Positions 15,536 to 34,334 of a DNA stretch of 39,771 nucleotides are shown here, piece by piece. The position numbers and the translations under genes are program-made. The DNA comes from a virus: positions 1 through 39,771 of the IMG/VR virus record IMGVR_UViG_3300046535_000998; one strand, written 5' to 3'. How positions within the stretch are numbered: position 1 is the stretch's first letter; the number at the start of each line of letters is the position of its first letter. The notes under the pieces are model-generated. The model ran no database searches, was not told the DNA's origin, and was given only the letters and a program-made list of their open reading frames with translations.

Positions 15536-15609
15536 TAGTCGCCGGGGGATTCGAACCCACCACTAATACGCTCCTAAGGCGCATGCCTCTACCGTTGGGC
15601 TAGGCGACC
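15536..15609 (-). tRNA. tRNA-Leu(TAG)-like
   Basis: Acceptor GGTCGCC with partner GGCGACT, T8/A9, D arm around GCCCAACGGTAGAGGC, anticodon stem TGCGC/GCGTA, loop CTTAGGA giving TAG, T loop TTCGAAT with one stem mismatch. It lacks the long variable arm expected of leucine tRNAs, so charging identity is uncertain. It would read CTA codons, which the late genes use often for this GC level. Confidence 0.7.
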
Positions 15610-15648
15610 AGGGCCCTACCCGCCATGTTCGATGGTTGGTAAGGCTCG

Positions 15649-15720
15649 CTGCGGGGGCAGGGATCGAACCTGCGCACGTCGGATTAACAATCCGGTGCTC
15701 TGCCGCTGAGCTACCCCGCA
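15649..15720 (-). tRNA. tRNA-Asn(GTT)
   Basis: Acceptor TGCGGGG/CCCCGCA, D arm GCTC...GAGC, loop TTGTTAA giving anticodon GTT, T arm GCAGG-TTCGATC-CCTGC. All arms form. Confidence 0.9.
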
Positions 15721-15724
15721 AAAG

Positions 15725-15797
15725 TTGGCCCGGTCGGATTTGAACCGACGACATCCGGCATGTAAGGCCGGCGCTCTCTCCACTGAGCTACGCGCCA
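15725..15797 (-). tRNA. tRNA-Val(TAC)
   Basis: Acceptor TGGCGCG with partner CGGGCCA (one mismatch), anticodon stem CCGGC/GCCGG, loop CTTACAT giving TAC, T arm GTCGG-TTCAAAT-CCGAC. Reads GTA codons. Confidence 0.88.
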
Positions 15798-15830
15798 TGA
15801 ATCCCCCGAGTAAGCGACGGGGCCGCTAAG

Positions 15831-15903
15831 TGCTTCGCTCAGGACTCGAACCTGAAACCTACGGGGAATGAGCCCGCCGCTCTACCGATTGAGCTAGCGA
15901 AGT
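15831..15903 (-). tRNA. tRNA-Met(CAT)
   Basis: Acceptor ACTTCGC with GCGAAGC (first pair A-C), D arm GCTC...GAGC, anticodon stem GCGGG/CCCGT, loop CTCATTC giving CAT, T arm TCAGG-TTCGAGT-CCTGA. Could be elongator Met or a lysidine-modified Ile tRNA. Confidence 0.82.
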
Positions 15904-15947
15904 AAAACCGCGACTACGGGCGCGGACCGGGTGACGAGTTTAGAAAT

Positions 15948-15970
15948 AGGACTCTTGCACCATGAGTCCT
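15948..15970 (-). other. Hairpin in the tRNA spacer
   Basis: Arms AGGACTC and GAGTCCT around a 9-base loop, in the 69-base spacer between two tRNA genes. Possibly an RNA processing signal. Confidence 0.4.
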
Positions 15971-15972
15971 AG

Positions 15973-16043
15973 GCCGCGCAACGGGATTTGAACCCGCGAC
16001 CTCCGGCTGTGCCACCGGTGCTCTACCGCTGAGCTACGCGCAG
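15973..16043 (-). tRNA. tRNA with irregular anticodon arm (identity undetermined)
   Basis: Acceptor CTGCGCG/TGCGCGG pairs well with two G-T wobbles; D arm GCTC-AGCGGTA-GAGC and T arm GCGGG-TTCAAAT-CCCGT are normal. The anticodon arm CCGG-TGGCACAG-CCGG gives four pairs with an 8-base loop, or five pairs with a T-G closing pair and a 6-base loop; no register gives a 7-base loop with T33. The anticodon cannot be assigned. Confidence 0.6.
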
Positions 16044-16109
16044 CATCGGCAGTTTTACAGGACTGCCCAACCCGAGCGGCATTTTTATATCGGACCCCCG
16101 CTAGAGTCC

Positions 16110-16185
16110 TGGCGTCTCCCACGGGATTTGAACCCGTACCCTCTCGCGTGACAGGCGAGCGCTCTAACCGTTGAGCTAGAAAGAC
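16110..16185 (-). tRNA. tRNA-Asp(GTC)
   Basis: Acceptor GTCTTTC/GGGAGAC, anticodon stem CTCGC/GCGAG, loop CTGTCAC giving GTC, T arm ACGGG-TTCAAAT-CCCGT. The 3' CCA appears to be encoded (GCCA after the acceptor). Confidence 0.92.
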
Positions 16186-16191
16186 AAGTGT

Positions 16192-16262
16192 CATCGGGTG
16201 ACGGAGTCGAACCGCCATTTCTCGATTTACAGTCGAGCGACTTGCCGTTAGTCGAACCCTCC
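16192..16262 (-). tRNA. tRNA-Tyr(GTA)-like with weak acceptor stem
   Basis: Anticodon stem CTCGA/TCGAG perfect, loop CTGTAAA giving GTA, T arm GGCGG-TTCGACT-CCGTC. Only about four of seven acceptor pairs form (GGAGGGT against ACCCGAT), and the D region reads GACT-AACGGCA-AGTC. Possibly decaying or edited. Confidence 0.65.
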
Positions 16263-16264
16263 GG

Positions 16265-16338
16265 AGCCCCCACTAGGATTCGAACCTAGGACCGCCGGTT
16301 TACGAAACCGGAGCTCTGACCATCTGAGCTATAAGGGC
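16265..16338 (-). tRNA. tRNA-Thr(CGT)
   Basis: Acceptor GCCCTTA/TGGGGGC, D arm GCTC...GAGC, anticodon stem CCGGT/ACCGG, loop TTCGTAA giving CGT, T arm CTAGG-TTCGAAT-CCTAG. First gene of the tRNA operon. Confidence 0.92.
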
Positions 16339-24622: not shown

Positions 24623-25438
24623 TTAGGCTGCTGCACCCTTGAGGTAAAGCTCACGGAACCGCACGCGGCCCTTAGTGCGGGCCTGCTGCACCTGGTACGT
24701 GCTCAGGCCCATGTCCTCGGCCATTTCCCCATCGGCCTCGCCCACCTGGTCGCCGTAGTAGCGAACATCGCCGATGGCGTAGTCCTGCCGCAGGACGGTT
24801 CCCATGCGGGAACTCAGCTTGTCGAGCGTGCCGTGTACGCGGTCACGGATGACCCTTTGGCGGTGCGTCTCTACGTCCCGCTCGGTCAACAGGTCCTCGG
24901 GGATGCCGAGGGATCCGGCGATCAGTTCGCCGACGGTCACAGTCGCCCCGGCCTCGCCCGACACGGGGACGTCAAGGGAATCGGTACCCTGCCACGCCAT
25001 GCGGGCCGCGTAGGCACCCTCTCGGCTCATCTTGCGGTCACCCATGGCCGCAGCGTCCTGCGCGACCTTTTCGGCCTCGTACGGGTCACCGCCGGCGAGG
25101 GCGATAGCCGTCTCGAAATCGGCCGCCGCACGGCGCGAAACGCCCTGGCGCGTCTCCGACTTGCGCGTGTTCGCCATGACGCCCCGGAGGGTTACGTCAA
25201 TGAACTCTGCGAACTGTGCCACGTCCGTTCCCTTGAAACGGTCGATTGCTTCCCAGACTGCAATCCGTCCGGTCTGCGCGAGGTCCTCGGCGAGGTCCGC
25301 ATCAAACCGGCTGCCGAGGGTAGCCGCCTGATTGGCAAGGAACGTCACTCGCGCCTCGGTCGCGGTGATCACAGCGGTTACGGCCTCAAGATCGTTGAGC
25401 TTTGCGTCTACGATCTGCTGCTCGGTCAGCTCAAGCAT
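24623..25438 (-). CDS. Sigma-70-like RNA polymerase sigma factor
   Basis: 271 residues from ATG 25438 (AGGGG eight bases upstream; the longer frame would start inside a promoter motif). Residues ~47-92 (DADLAEDLAQTGRIAVWEAIDRFKGTDVAQFAEFIDVTLRGVM) follow sigma region 2, the -10 binding and core-contact part. Residues ~203-262 (GTLDKLSSRMGTVLRQDY... GEMAEDMGLSTYQVQQARTKGRVRFREL) follow region 4 with its helix-turn-helix. The linker is longer than in ECF factors and region 1.1 is absent. It would redirect host polymerase to phage promoters. Phage promoter motif 2 precedes its own gene. A distant or inactive homologue remains possible. Confidence 0.75.
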   Translation of the reverse strand: MLELTEQQIVDAKLNDLEAVTAVITATEARVTFLANQAATLGSRFDADLAEDLAQTGRIAVWEAIDRFKGTDVAQFAEFIDVTLRGVMANTRKSETRQGVSRRAAADFETAIALAGGDPYEAEKVAQDAAAMGDRKMSREGAYAARMAWQGTDSLDVPVSGEAGATVTVGELIAGSLGIPEDLLTERDVETHRQRVIRDRVHGTLDKLSSRMGTVLRQDYAIGDVRYYGDQVGEADGEMAEDMGLSTYQVQQARTKGRVRFRELYLKGAAA

Positions 25439-25471
25439 CGAAAACCCCTGTTCTTCGGTGTCTGTGAGGGA

Positions 25472-25489
25472 GAGAACCCAAGGAATTCC
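25472..25489 (-). promoter_or_regulatory. Phage promoter motif 2 (sigma-like gene)
   Basis: GGAAT-TCCTT-GGGTTCTC, ending 34 bases before the sigma-like start. Confidence 0.7.
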
Positions 25490-25795
25490 CGGTTTCCGTC
25501 CTCGCACAGACGTGACCGGGGTGGTGCTAGGGGTGGGGCTGATCAGTGCCGTTCGCCGTTGCTGCGAGGAACTTACGTCGCATACGTATGCAGATCAATG
25601 GGTTTGCAAACCTGACAACCAATCAGGCTCGCGATCGTTACCCTTCGAACCCAAGGCATGCCACCGCCTACACCTTGAGGATGACGGGAACCGGCCCCCG
25701 TGACATACCCGTTACCGAGCATCCGAAGGCCGATCCCCGCACATCGCGAGTCTGATTACTGATCAGTACGTCCAGAAACCTTTACTTGCACGTGA

Positions 25796-27768: not shown

Positions 27769-30207
27769 CTACTTGGCGAAAATGCCGGGGCCGGCTGCGA
27801 TTGCCTCGGGTGCCGCAATGCGCACACCGACCAGGGCGATACCGGTCTTGACCCGCTTACGCGTCACGCCGCGTTCTTCCATGGCGCCGTAAAACGTGCG
27901 GCGCGTCCAACGCTCTTTGTTCGGCAGATTCTCTGCCTCGCACCAATCCAGATACGCCGAGAAAGCGGCGTTGCCGTTGATCACGTCGTCCTCGGTGCCG
28001 CGCTCCATCACGCCCGGATAGAAACCGGCGAGGGTGTCCGACGTTTCCCGGTACTCCCTGCCCGCCCGCACAATGACCGCCGGATCCTGCAAGCCACCCT
28101 CGTACCATTCGGCAGCGCCACGGACGGCCCAAGCGGCAATGCCCTCGGCCTCGGCGAGCAACTTCCGGTCAAGGTCGTAATCCCGCTCGTCCGGCGCAAA
28201 CCACCGGGTAAACGGAATCAACTTCACTCGGCGCCACAAACCCTCGTCCTGGCCCTTAAACCTCGGCTTGTGATTGGTCGCGAGCAGCAGCAGGAACGAC
28301 GGCCGGAACTCGAAAAACTCTTGGTGCAGGAATCGGGCGCTGATCATGTCCTTACCGGTGATCCGCTTCAAAACGGCCTCGTTCATCGGCTTACCGGACT
28401 CACCCTCGGACGCCATGACCAGACGCGAACCCCGCAGCGCTGCAACGTCGTTGGGGATCCCGCCGCCGGAACGCTCCTCGAACGTGGCGAAACCGGTCGT
28501 CTTAGTGATGTTGCGGAGGACGGCCGTAAGGGTGTCGGTCAGAACCGATTTCCCGTTCGCTCCCTTGCCCCACAACACAGCGAAAGACTGCTCGGACGTG
28601 TGGCCGGTGATCCCGTAGCCAATCAGCCGGCGCATGTACGGCGGCAGTTCGGGATTGCCCGGGAAAATCTCGGACATGAAAGCGTCCCATCGGGGGCACT
28701 TGGCGTTCGGGTTGTAATTCACGTCAAGGCAATCCGTCAGCATGTCCGCCGGATCGTGGGGGCGCATCTTCCCGGTGCGCAGGTCGACCGTGCCGTTACG
28801 GAAATTCAGCAGGTCCGGGCGGGCGTCGAAATCGGCAACGTCCACATGCACGGACGGCACCGACTGCAATTCGGTGAGCAGGGCGTTAATGCGCGAGGTC
28901 ATCGTGAACCCGCGCGCAGACTTGATATCGCCGGAGAGGACCAGAGCGGCCCCCATGCGGTGAATTTCCTGCCGAACCTTGACCGTCGAGCGCTCCCAAA
29001 CGCGCCCGTTCCACACGTGAAACCCGAGGCCCGGTGCAAACCGAATGAACCCGCCGCACCATGCGACCAGGGCGTGTGCGTTCATCGCGTCGGATTCGCC
29101 GTACCGGTCGGTGAGCCCTGCCAGCACGCGTGCAGCCTCGCGGCCCTGGTCGCGGGACACCATGTCGGCCCCGGTCCGGCCGGACAGTTCGGCGGACACT
29201 GCCTCGGCCTCGGCCTCGGCCTGGTCGACCACGGGACGGGCGTTCTTCACGGCAGCGTGCAGCGAGGCGGGGAAAGCCTGCGGGTCGCGGGCCCGCCAAT
29301 CGGTCAAGTCGTCCCCAGTGGTGGGGATTTGCAGCGTGAAAACGTCGATGCCGTGCGCCTTGAGCGCGTCCGCCAGGCGCCGAGTGAACCCCTGCCCTGC
29401 GGTGTCGTTGTCCCCGCACACGATCACGTGCGACCCGCGCAGGCCGGCTGCCAGCTCCTCCACAACTTCCGGAACGGCAGCGAGCGAGGCACCCCGCACG
29501 GCAACGGCGTCATACCCCACAGAAACCGCTGTGAGTGCGTCTCCCGGGCCCTCGGTGACCAGGACGGCCCCATACCCAGCCTGCCCCCGGAAAACGCCGT
29601 ACTGTGCCCACCGCTGCCCGTCCGGGTTGGCAAGGGAAAGCCACCGCCCGGGGCACTCGCCGGAAAGGTCGCGACCCTGCAAGCCACGTGCCACGCCCCG
29701 GAAATCCCGGAGCGGAACAGTCAGCCTCGGGTACTTACGGAATGCCGTGGAACGGCCCTTCCCGAGCGAGGAATCGTCACGGCCGGAGTCGTACCCGAGC
29801 ATGAGATCCGCAGCGAGGTCCCCCGAGATACCGAAACGGTCGGCGGCATACTGGCGGGCACGTGCGGCACCCTCGCTCACGAACGAGTGCAGATGCATCG
29901 CCGAGGCGTCAACGTACATGGCGAGAGCGGCAGTTAGGCCGGGGCCGACCATCACGGGGCGTTCCTTGGGCACGGTGTTGCCCTCGCCCTCGGCGTCGAA
30001 AAGGTCAGCCCAGTTGAGCCGAGCAGCCTTGCGCACGTCGTCAGTTGCACAGCCGGCCCGACACGTGAGCCGCACTTTGTTGTCATCCCCGCGCCAAATG
30101 CGAAGGGACGGACGGGAATCCCCGTGCGCGGGACACAGCGCGAGGTATCCGCCGTCCGCCTCCTCGGTCACCTGCGAAAACCGGGCGAGCACATCAGAGA
30201 AAATCAC
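27769..30207 (-). CDS. Primase-helicase (P4-alpha/D5 type)
   Basis: 812 residues from GTG 30207, AAAGGAAAA upstream. Zinc finger at ~25-55 (LCPAHGDSRPSLRIW... CRAGCATDDV), Toprim-like core (AVLVTEGPGDALTAVSVGYDAVAVRG, VIVCGDNDTAGQGFTRRLADAL), then a D5/SF3 helicase: SFAVLWGKGANGKSVLTDTL (Walker A), RLVMASEGESGKPMNEAVLKRITGKDMISARFL, SFLLLLATNHKPRF (sensor). It primes and unwinds DNA at the fork. Similar two-domain proteins occur in phiC31-like phages. Confidence 0.95.
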   Translation of the reverse strand: MIFSDVLARFSQVTEEADGGYLALCPAHGDSRPSLRIWRGDDNKVRLTCRAGCATDDVRKAARLNWADLFDAEGEGNTVPKERPVMVGPGLTAALAMYVDASAMHLHSFVSEGAARARQYAADRFGISGDLAADLMLGYDSGRDDSSLGKGRSTAFRKYPRLTVPLRDFRGVARGLQGRDLSGECPGRWLSLANPDGQRWAQYGVFRGQAGYGAVLVTEGPGDALTAVSVGYDAVAVRGASLAAVPEVVEELAAGLRGSHVIVCGDNDTAGQGFTRRLADALKAHGIDVFTLQIPTTGDDLTDWRARDPQAFPASLHAAVKNARPVVDQAEAEAEAVSAELSGRTGADMVSRDQGREAARVLAGLTDRYGESDAMNAHALVAWCGGFIRFAPGLGFHVWNGRVWERSTVKVRQEIHRMGAALVLSGDIKSARGFTMTSRINALLTELQSVPSVHVDVADFDARPDLLNFRNGTVDLRTGKMRPHDPADMLTDCLDVNYNPNAKCPRWDAFMSEIFPGNPELPPYMRRLIGYGITGHTSEQSFAVLWGKGANGKSVLTDTLTAVLRNITKTTGFATFEERSGGGIPNDVAALRGSRLVMASEGESGKPMNEAVLKRITGKDMISARFLHQEFFEFRPSFLLLLATNHKPRFKGQDEGLWRRVKLIPFTRWFAPDERDYDLDRKLLAEAEGIAAWAVRGAAEWYEGGLQDPAVIVRAGREYRETSDTLAGFYPGVMERGTEDDVINGNAAFSAYLDWCEAENLPNKERWTRRTFYGAMEERGVTRKRVKTGIALVGVRIAAPEAIAAGPGIFAK

Positions 30208-30267: not shown

Positions 30268-30381
30268 TCAGAACAGGTACACGCCGTCCGACCAGGCCGC
30301 TTGCCCGAGCAGGACCAGGCCGGCGAGCGTCAACGCCAGGAACGGCAACTCGACCACCAGGTAAGAGAGTTCCTCTCTCAT
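30268..30381 (-). CDS. Tiny membrane protein 4
   Basis: 37 residues from ATG 30381: REELSYLVVELPFLALTLAGLVLLGQ then AAWSDGVYLF. One hydrophobic span. Its start overlaps the stop of tiny protein 3 as ATGA; GAGAGGAAC lies inside the gene. Last of four chained genes. Confidence 0.62.
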   Translation of the reverse strand: MREELSYLVVELPFLALTLAGLVLLGQAAWSDGVYLF

Positions 30382-30467
30382 GGGGCACCGACCACGGCGC
30401 GGCCGATCGCGATACCGAGCGTGAAAAACCCGGTGAGGTAGACCAGGGCGACCAGGTAACGACTCAC
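30378..30467 (-). CDS. Tiny membrane protein 3
   Basis: 29 residues from GTG 30467: SRYLVALVYLTGFFTLGIAI then GRAVVGAP. One hydrophobic span; GTGA overlap with tiny protein 2, ATGA overlap with 4. Confidence 0.6.
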   Translation of the reverse strand: MSRYLVALVYLTGFFTLGIAIGRAVVGAP

Positions 30468-30571
30468 CGGAGCGTCACCCCCACCGCGCCCACCGTCTGA
30501 CCGGCGATCGCCAACACGCCGAGGCCGAGCCACAGGCCGCAAACCCAACGCTCCAGCGGGTCAAGACTCAT
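30464..30571 (-). CDS. Tiny membrane protein 2
   Basis: 35 residues from ATG 30571: SLDPLERWVCGLWLGLGVLA then IAGQTVGAVGVTLR. One hydrophobic span, ATGA overlap with tiny protein 1. Confidence 0.6.
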   Translation of the reverse strand: MSLDPLERWVCGLWLGLGVLAIAGQTVGAVGVTLR

Positions 30572-30669
30572 CGGCTCAGCACCTTCACTACGGCAGCCAT
30601 CTCCGCCACCAGGGCAACGCCGAGCAGCCCGAGCAGCACGCCGAACACGAAACTCTGAAACCGGTTCAA
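30568..30669 (-). CDS. Tiny membrane protein 1
   Basis: 33 residues from TTG 30669, overlapping the resolvase-like gene stop as TTGA: NRFQSFVFGVLLGLLGVALV then AEMAAVVKVLSR. One hydrophobic span. No ribosome site of its own, so translation would depend on coupling. Confidence 0.58.
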   Translation of the reverse strand: MNRFQSFVFGVLLGLLGVALVAEMAAVVKVLSR

Positions 30670-31175
30670 TGCCCCATCACCTTCCGCAGGTCTTCCAGCA
30701 GGAACGAGAATTGATGCACGTCGCAAGTCAGGTACCACCAGCCGGTGTTACGGCTGCGCACGGTCGGCGCGAACCGGTACTCGCGGCGCATTTCCACAGT
30801 CGACAGGCCGAGGGCAAGGCGTACTCGCGTCCACGTCCGCACGTCGAAATGGACCAGGCCGCGCATCACGCTGCGACCCCGTGTCTTCACCACGGCCACC
30901 CCGTACGGGAATCCCGCATGCCCCGCCTCGGTGCGAGCCTGCCGCAGAAACGACGGAACCGACGGATTAGAGACGTTCTTACACTCCAGCACGAACGGGA
31001 CGGCCCAAACGTCGCCCACATCCTTGGCACCTTCCTGCGCCGGCCGCCGGACATTCAGCGCACTGAAAGGGTCCGTGAACGTGCCGTGCGCGTTGAGCAT
31101 GCCGAGGGAGCGATTCAGGTAATCCCGAACGTCGCTCTCCCACGCTGTGCCCTTGACCTTGTTTGGGTTAGCCAC
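30666..31175 (-). CDS. Holliday junction resolvase-like nuclease
   Basis: 169 residues from GTG 31175. PD-(D/E)XK pattern near the start: KGTAWESDVRDYLNRSLG (Glu), KDVGDVWAVPFVLECKN (Asp, then E-x-K), VPSFLRQARTEAGHAGFPYGVAVVKTRGR. Resolvases of this kind debranch replicated phage DNA before packaging. The first tiny membrane gene overlaps its stop. Confidence 0.75.
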   Translation of the reverse strand: MANPNKVKGTAWESDVRDYLNRSLGMLNAHGTFTDPFSALNVRRPAQEGAKDVGDVWAVPFVLECKNVSNPSVPSFLRQARTEAGHAGFPYGVAVVKTRGRSVMRGLVHFDVRTWTRVRLALGLSTVEMRREYRFAPTVRSRNTGWWYLTCDVHQFSFLLEDLRKVMGH

Positions 31176-31257
31176 GCCCGACCACCCATCGGGCGATGCC
31201 CTTTCCGAGGGCCCAACCCGTTGCAAACTCGCCGACCAGCGAGAAAAAGTGTTCCAT
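31168..31257 (-). CDS. Possible 29-residue peptide
   Basis: ATG 31257 overlaps the upstream stop (TGATG) and its TAA overlaps the next GTG. MEHFFSLVGEFATGWALGKG then IARWVVGRG: amphipathic or membrane-skimming. Supported only by tight coupling. Confidence 0.4.
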   Translation of the reverse strand: MEHFFSLVGEFATGWALGKGIARWVVGRG

Positions 31258-31427
31258 CACACCCACCTGATTTCTGCCCCCCGGGTACGAGCGACCCCTA
31301 GCGCGTCCCAATACCGCGACCAGTCCGCGCGGTAAACCGAATCCTGCGCAACGAAAATGACTGTCCCCGTTGCGGCCTCGCGAACGTCGCCGAGCGCGGG
31401 TGCGCTTTCATGGCTGACGAAAAGCAC
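31257..31427 (-). CDS. Small hypothetical protein
   Basis: 56 residues from GTG 31427 with AAGGTTGAGAAG upstream. LFVSHESAPALGDVREAATGTVIFVAQDSVYRADWSRYWDALG... It has an alternating beta/helix layout. First gene after a strong terminator, so its promoter must lie in 31428-31453 or read-through occurs. Unknown function. Confidence 0.5.
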   Translation of the reverse strand: MLFVSHESAPALGDVREAATGTVIFVAQDSVYRADWSRYWDALGVARTRGAEIRWV

Positions 31428-31453
31428 TTCTCAACCTTTCCCAGAAATGCCAA

Positions 31454-31490
31454 AGGGCCGGACAACTTCGTTTTGAAGTCATCCGGCCCT
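31454..31490 (-). terminator. Terminator
   Basis: Minus strand GGGCCGGATGACTTC-AAAAC-GAAGTTGTCCGGCCC then TTTGG: 15-base arms with two TG/TG bulge pairs. Confidence 0.85.
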
Positions 31491-31499
31491 CGGCCTGCC

Positions 31500-31775
31500 T
31501 CACTCCCCGGTCACGTCCGGGACGACTAGCCGCACGTGCTCGGCGGAAATCCACTCGGCGCGCGAGGACTTGCGGGCGGTAAACCCGCTCTCCTGCCCGG
31601 TCGGACGGACCAGCAGCATGGGGACCAGGCGCCCGCCGACAATGCGGGCCGTAACGCGCTGCACGATGGCATCCGTCATGCGAACCCGATTGGCCTGACG
31701 CGTCGCGTAGGCGACCAGGTCACCCCGGTAAATCTCGTCCCCGGCATAGTCTGTGACGGTTCCGCGCTTAGCCAT
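31500..31775 (-). CDS. Hypothetical early protein
   Basis: 91 residues, ATG 31775. KRGTVTDYAGDEIYRGDLVAYATRQANRVRMTDAIVQRVTARIVGGRLVPMLLVRPTGQ ... WISAEHVRLV: an SH3-like beta barrel pattern (EIYRGDLVAYATR), as in small phage DNA-associated proteins; compare the protein at 34334 (GIEVAEGDLILSC). Function unknown. Confidence 0.65.
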   Translation of the reverse strand: MAKRGTVTDYAGDEIYRGDLVAYATRQANRVRMTDAIVQRVTARIVGGRLVPMLLVRPTGQESGFTARKSSRAEWISAEHVRLVVPDVTGE

Positions 31776-33385: not shown

Positions 33386-33403
33386 GAGAACCCGCCAAAT
33401 TCC
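33386..33403 (-). promoter_or_regulatory. Phage promoter motif 5
   Basis: GGAAT-TTGGC-GGGTTCTC, touching the endolysin stop and ending 39 bases before the 33347 start. Confidence 0.7.
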
Positions 33404-34155
33404 TACGGTCGCGTTACCGGCCGGTGGAACGTCGCGTACCAGGTGTGTTCGCCTACCTTGCGGTCAACGTCCAGCGGCCACCCGTGCGCGTTGCAGTCAC
33501 GCTGGAAAGCCTCGGCCACCGCAGCAGACTTGGGGCCGTAAACGCCATCCTTGGCGATGGTCCAGCCTCGCACGTCCGCCATGTGCGTCTGCCACTCCAG
33601 CACATCGGAACCGTGCACGCCCTCAACGAGCGCACGACCCCGGTACGGGTGCGGGTCGACAGGGGCCGGGGCGGGCTTCACAGGGGCCGGAGCGTCCGCA
33701 GGGTAAGCCGGGTAGCCGTAGCCGAGGATCGTGCCGTTACGGGGCCGGGTGCGCTTGTACGCGCCGTCACCGTTGCTCTGAGAGCCGGCCACGCCCGAGG
33801 ACGTGTTGCCCTCGTACGTCGTGATGCTCGAACCGTCGAACGCGACGACCAGGCCCACGTGGTCGGCGAGGCCGTCACCGTTCCAGTCGTAGAACACGAG
33901 CGCACCGACGCGCGGGGAACTACCCCACTGGCCACGGGACTTGAACCAATTGACGTGGCTCGGGGTGTACTGGAACCGGCCCACAACGTCACCGTTGCCC
34001 GAGGCCGCGCCGCAGTAGCTCTGATACTGGTCACACCACGGCTCGTTATTGTCGCCGTACCACTTGCCGAAAACGGTGTCGTTGTTCGGGCCCTCGCGGT
34101 AACCCTGGTCTACCCACCGCTCGGCCTCGGCGAGCATTGCGTTAACGCCAGACAT
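33403..34155 (-). CDS. Endolysin: CHAP amidase/peptidase plus peptidoglycan-binding domain
   Basis: 250 residues from ATG 34155 (AGAGAGAG upstream). CHAP domain ~1-145 with catalytic Cys41 in EPWCDQYQSYC, His99 in ADHVGLVV, and YEGNTS near the end. A Pro/Ala linker (VKPAPAPVDPHP) leads to a peptidoglycan-binding-1 fold (SDVLEWQTHMADVRGWTIAKDGVYGPKSAAVAEAFQRD). It has no signal peptide, so release needs the holin. It lies about 4 kb from the holin-like genes. Confidence 0.9.
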   Translation of the reverse strand: MSGVNAMLAEAERWVDQGYREGPNNDTVFGKWYGDNNEPWCDQYQSYCGAASGNGDVVGRFQYTPSHVNWFKSRGQWGSSPRVGALVFYDWNGDGLADHVGLVVAFDGSSITTYEGNTSSGVAGSQSNGDGAYKRTRPRNGTILGYGYPAYPADAPAPVKPAPAPVDPHPYRGRALVEGVHGSDVLEWQTHMADVRGWTIAKDGVYGPKSAAVAEAFQRDCNAHGWPLDVDRKVGEHTWYATFHRPVTRP

Positions 34156-34178
34156 GCACTCTCTCTTCTGTTGTTGTT

Positions 34179-34334
34179 TCAGTGGTGAACCCACGCGGCA
34201 CAGCGCGCGGGAACGTCATGCGCGGGCATCCACCCGAACGCGGAACAGGGGGCCGCAGCGTGAAACCACGACACGGCCACGACCAGGGCCAGCAGCACAG
34301 CCGGCCCCGCAAACGCCTTGAATGCGTCGCGCAT
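34179..34334 (-). CDS. Small membrane or exported protein
   Basis: 51 residues from ATG 34334, coupled to the upstream stop by TAATG. RDAFKAFAGPAVLLALVVAV then SWFHAAAPCSAFGW: one hydrophobic span near the N-terminus and two Cys in the tail. Directly upstream of the endolysin, so a lysis accessory role is possible. Confidence 0.58.
   Translation of the reverse strand: MRDAFKAFAGPAVLLALVVAVSWFHAAAPCSAFGWMPAHDVPARCAAWVHH

Follow-up and report, generated by a model that had tools for sequence, protein, structure and literature searches.

Start/stop-coupled single-span mini-ORFs between the resolvase and primase genes of a phiC31-like Streptomyces phage

The window, that is the whole stretch of DNA analysed, is a 39,771-base IMG/VR virus record of a phiC31-like Streptomyces phage with DNA and protein matches to phiC31, phiBT1, TG1, Rowa and relatives. 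An integrase akin to the DNA invertase/serine group is encoded in the window, together with homologues of the RDF (gp3), gp4 and gp5, a gp9a-like primase and a DNA polymerase. On the minus strand the early genes are ordered exonuclease, gp2-position ORF, endolysin, RDF (gp3), gp4, gp5, m0, Holliday junction resolvase (HJR), m1, m2, m3, m4, primase and polymerase. The features surrounding the mini-ORFs m0 to m4 are given below, where KD17 denotes the best 17-residue Kyte-Doolittle mean.

31430..31500, minus strand: hairpin in the gp4-gp5 interval, stable (-36.9 kcal/mol, z -5.3) and lacking a poly-U tail
31257..31427, minus strand: phiC31 gp5 homologue (phrog_15072)
31168..31257, minus strand: m0, 29-aa ORF occupying the place of gp6, after gp5 and before HJR (KD17 0.83); its stop lies within the HJR start (-8 overlap, GTGGCTAAC), an arrangement shared with many relatives
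30666..31178, minus strand: RusA-like HJR (PHROG_244, E 9e-20; the GTG near 31176 was taken as start)
30568..30669, minus strand: m1, 33-aa single-span mini-ORF, TTG start, TTGA overlap with the HJR stop
30464..30571, minus strand: m2, 35-aa single-span mini-ORF, ATG start, ATGA overlap with m1
30378..30467, minus strand: m3, 29-aa single-span mini-ORF, GTG start, GTGA overlap with m2
30268..30381, minus strand: m4, 37-aa single-span mini-ORF, ATG start, ATGA overlap with m3
27769..30207, minus strand: phiC31 gp9a-like DNA primase, the neighbour downstream of m4

A first-pass annotation had described four exactly overlapping reading frames of 33, 35, 29 and 37 codons between a resolvase-like gene and the primase, each encoding one hydrophobic helix. 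These frames were confirmed and assigned to the minus strand, which had been left unstated and is shared with the HJR and primase genes. The KD17 values were 2.53, 1.65, 2.25 and 2.32 for m1 to m4, respectively. AlphaFold2 returned one helix each for m1 (mean pLDDT 96) and m2 (mean pLDDT 92), which is weak evidence as these were single-sequence runs on hydrophobic peptides. Reading of the sequence revealed purine-rich stretches upstream of m1 to m3 and nearly none upstream of m4. The end of m4 is separated from the primase start by 60 nt, leaving m4 uncoupled from the primase. The hairpin at 31430..31500 is a possible terminator heading a unit that comprises gp5, m0, HJR and m1 to m4, and no promoter was found in a sigma-70 promoter scan.

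The slot was dinucleotide-shuffled 20,000 times. When hydrophobicity was ignored, 139 of the shuffles (0.7%) contained a chain of at least four ORFs, so that ORF chaining alone would not be convincing. The combination of chaining with hydrophobicity is remarkable, as hydrophobic chains of length two arose in 25 shuffles and chains of three in none. Exact-overlap hydrophobic chains of at least three were likewise found nowhere in 1.73 Mb of related loci with both strands counted. Down the chain the reading frame changes at each junction (frames 0, 2, 1, 0), followed each time by the peak of third-position GC; GC3 was maximal in the own frame of each ORF, at 0.84 in m1, 0.85 in m2, 0.81 in m3 and 0.86 in m4. 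Synonymous codon choice in m1 to m4 fitted that of the long genes of the phage beyond base composition (pooled 16.1 bits, reached in 0 of 5000 draws; p<0.04 for each ORF), with the caveat that the +1 frame scored about equally in m1, m3 and m4. The string of single-span, start/stop-coupled mini-ORFs with coding signal is non-chance, and m1 to m4 are very probably real protein-coding genes.

The neighbourhood was surveyed in 97 distinct phiC31-like loci, a number that includes both members of close pairs (for example L017/L018 and L084/L085). The genes gp3, gp4a, gp4, gp5, HNH/HJR and primase were mapped in the fetched loci and three slots were defined, namely the gp4-gp5 stretch (slot A), the stretch from gp5 to HNH/HJR (slot B) and the stretch after HNH/HJR and before the primase (slot C). 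The early block was syntenic across loci, with HNH (phiC31 gp7) and HJR alternating at the same place. A sense single-span mini-ORF was present in 35 of the 63 slot-B stretches with room for one, compared to a single antisense case and a shuffle mean of 2.35; the KD17 cut-off of 1.6 misses members like m0 and the slot-B count may therefore be a lower bound. Slot A was at background (1 of 81 stretches). Single-span ORFs in slot C were confined to 3 of 76 stretches, those of the window (four), L025 (three) and L095 (one), and in many relatives HJR or HNH is present while a mini-ORF is not. When the linking was relaxed to junctions of -30 to +10 nt, at least two linked mini-ORFs were found at 12 loci in 2.6 Mb, a count in which L024 and L146 are one contig. 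Nine of the 12 lie in slot B or C; tandem mini-ORFs are thus characteristic of this neighbourhood, with the longest case in the window.

Most slot-B mini-ORFs start with an overlap of 1, 4 or 8 nt with the gp5 stop, and many end either 8 nt into the HJR start (GTGGCTAAC, giving a recurrent C-terminal RG) or 4 nt into the HNH start. Related slot-B pairs were under constraint at the protein level (pooled pS 0.45 versus pN 0.18, six pairs, Fisher p 9e-10) and the same mini-ORFs occur in prophages of Streptomyces genomes. The C-terminal flank was the more positive one in 38 of 49 mini-ORFs, which suggests that the slot-B proteins would mostly adopt an N-out/C-in orientation. The acidic m4 does not fit this pattern.

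Among the closest known counterparts is gp6 of phiC31 (NP_047952.1; 41 aa, KD 2.6), one of the slot-B mini-ORFs of the survey, which like m1 to m4 is a single-span mini-protein gene of the early block, coupled in its case to gp5 and gp7. The ORFs m1 to m4 share with this type a single strongly hydrophobic segment (KD17 1.65-2.53), a size within 20-60 aa and start/stop overlaps with their neighbours, apart from the m4/primase junction. They differ in position, since gp6 and the slot-B mini-ORFs occur as one or two genes between gp5 and HNH/HJR while the window carries a chain of four after HJR, in slot C. L025 (IMGVR_UViG_3300046679_000142) resembles the window in that its slot C, here between HNH and primase, is occupied by single-span ORFs that overlap, but these are three rather than four, differ in sequence and include one long overlap of about 23 nt. 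The best match of m3 was the third ORF of this cluster, at a score no better than that of shuffles. The mini-ORFs of phiSASD1 (L094, two in 2297-2511) and Dubu (L091, one at 2461-2544) are single-span as in the window but lie in slot B and are fewer, and the last of them before HJR overlaps the HJR start by 8 nt. They are unannotated in the deposited gene tables (2461-2544 in Dubu; 2297-2398 and 2401-2511 in phiSASD1).

Two further frames had been proposed to extend the theme. The frame at 31168, m0, is present and agrees with the conserved slot in its location and in its coupling to the genes on either side, being the only mini-ORF of the window in slot B, but its hydrophobicity is weak (0.83). 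The 51-codon ORF at 34179-34334 (minus strand) does not belong with the chain. It is single-span, matches phrog_8950, carries a PC...VPARC motif and is also found in L036 and L150, with further matches in L059-L061 and phage Euratis; it is a separate, more conserved mini-membrane family.

Homologues of m1 to m4 were found neither when viral and genome contigs were scanned with the concatenated peptides nor by tblastn of 50,697 phage records and of all fetched loci. No match was accepted in 393 Streptomyces genomes; the sole one (E 8e-4) runs across the m2/m3 join in a frame of 546 codons that contains a stop, and was rejected. Pfam, PHROGs and PADLOC gave no functional match for m1 to m4, nor was there a named superinfection-exclusion family among the matches. 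Family-library matches were weak throughout, and that between m1 and phrog_19123 'membrane protein' (E 0.007) was attributed to hydrophobic composition. The best profile and alignment scores of m1 to m4 against the slot-B families were marginal (p 0.006-0.165 versus shuffles, uncorrected for multiple tests), as was the similarity of m1 to m4 among themselves. For m1 against phiC31 gp6 the shuffle fractions were 0.055 and 0.02, and homology between the two is only suggestive. In six relatives with the same resolvase (L005-L010) no mini-ORFs lie between resolvase and primase; the resolvase reaches the primase directly or across a short gap lacking such ORFs.

Taken by position, the gp6-type mini-membrane site is hypervariable and is kept by phiC31-like phages in the early replication block. 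The explanation that we tentatively favour, plausible if short of probable, is that m1 to m4, together with m0, are coupled genes for single-helix membrane microproteins, an expansion of the gp6-type position one gene downstream, serving as accessory early factors of host takeover or exclusion. Translation, membrane insertion, timing and function are here inferred. The proteins would be made early in lytic infection, a timing that we assume from gene position and general knowledge. Ribosomes ending HJR would re-initiate from ORF to ORF through the chain, resulting in roughly linked amounts, and each product would enter the host membrane as one helix and may there modulate a host membrane protein, block a competitor or counter a membrane defence. 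Gain and loss beside a conserved replication block suits such an accessory role against host membrane, competitors or defences, and fast turnover together with dispensability is what a host-specific arms-race role would predict. In published actinophage screens some single-span phage proteins were toxic, and in the mycobacteriophage screen a TM segment was no predictor of toxicity (PMC9339283); toxicity of m1 to m4 is therefore not to be assumed. A stronger version, in which the four proteins are co-translated in linked amounts and form one hetero-oligomeric membrane complex, a split multi-span machine swapped helix by helix among phiC31-like phages, appears quite unlikely.

The functions suggested in the first-pass annotation included lysis control, with the mini-proteins acting as holin, antiholin or pinholin-like single-span proteins. 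Several holin-like genes can be present in an actinophage lysis cassette, and toxicity is reported for a single-TMD N-out/C-in protein encoded beside the holin (PMC11075535); the tendency of slot-B mini-proteins towards a positive C flank points the same way. The single-TMD holin-like proteins Girr gp35 and Waterfoul gp32 share with m1 to m4 the single span and low sequence conservation, but adjoin lysin genes and have a charged cytoplasmic domain (PMC11075535). In contrast, m1 to m4 lie outside any lysis cassette, in the replication block and about 3 kb from an endolysin gene (33403-34194) that has a single-span ORF of its own upstream, by which lysis control is disfavoured and is considered unlikely. 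Replication anchoring, in which the mini-proteins would hold the replisome or resolvase at the membrane, draws on the location of the chain between resolvase and primase on the same strand. The same primase and resolvase occur in many relatives that have no m1 to m4, however, which speaks against an essential function of this kind, and mini-protein sequence turnover is extreme while the primase stays about 60-74% identical. We regard anchoring as very unlikely.

The mini-ORFs could also be coupling devices, whose translation determines how strongly the adjacent resolvase or HNH gene is expressed and whose peptides are by-products. The overlaps are very regular, above all the -8 overlap with HJR, as this would have it. 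Against it, the slot-B peptides show protein-level constraint and a consistent membrane span, m4 is set apart from the primase by the 60-nt gap and HJR or HNH frequently occurs with no mini-ORF at all, making this a distinctly improbable account. The lack of homologues and the frequency of chaining alone in shuffles would agree with chance ORFs in GC-rich DNA or with decayed remnants of a single multi-span gene. The shuffles yielded no hydrophobic chain of three, however, the GC3 and codon signals track each frame and an exact start/stop overlap at every junction is unexpected from decay; chance or decay is very improbable. The observations point, in a well-studied phage group from which the phiC31 integrase tool comes, to a conserved position whose membrane-microprotein content turns over rapidly, and such genes are absent from the deposited tables of two or more reference phages. 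Since position and coupling are kept while the sequence varies, further members can be located systematically and assayed for effects on Streptomyces membranes, on phage exclusion or on defence.

Several other features of the window were recorded. The endolysin gene (33403-34194, minus strand) is an early-region gene immediately upstream of the RDF; full-length counterparts in a similar location were seen only in L043 and L071, the lysins of other phiC31-like phages being elsewhere. About eleven near-identical palindromes with the core GGGAAATTTCC (best GTAGGGAAATTTCCCTACTGC) are dispersed at 2206, 7180, 10230, 12815, 15511, 22715, 23266, 23815, 24071, 25802 and 37256; none of the longer form is expected by chance, and they resemble dispersed repressor-operator or stoperator sites. 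A cluster of eight tRNA genes is located at 15536-16338 (minus strand), and a phage-encoded RNA polymerase sigma factor at 24623-25507 (minus strand; phrog_15865, E 5e-40).
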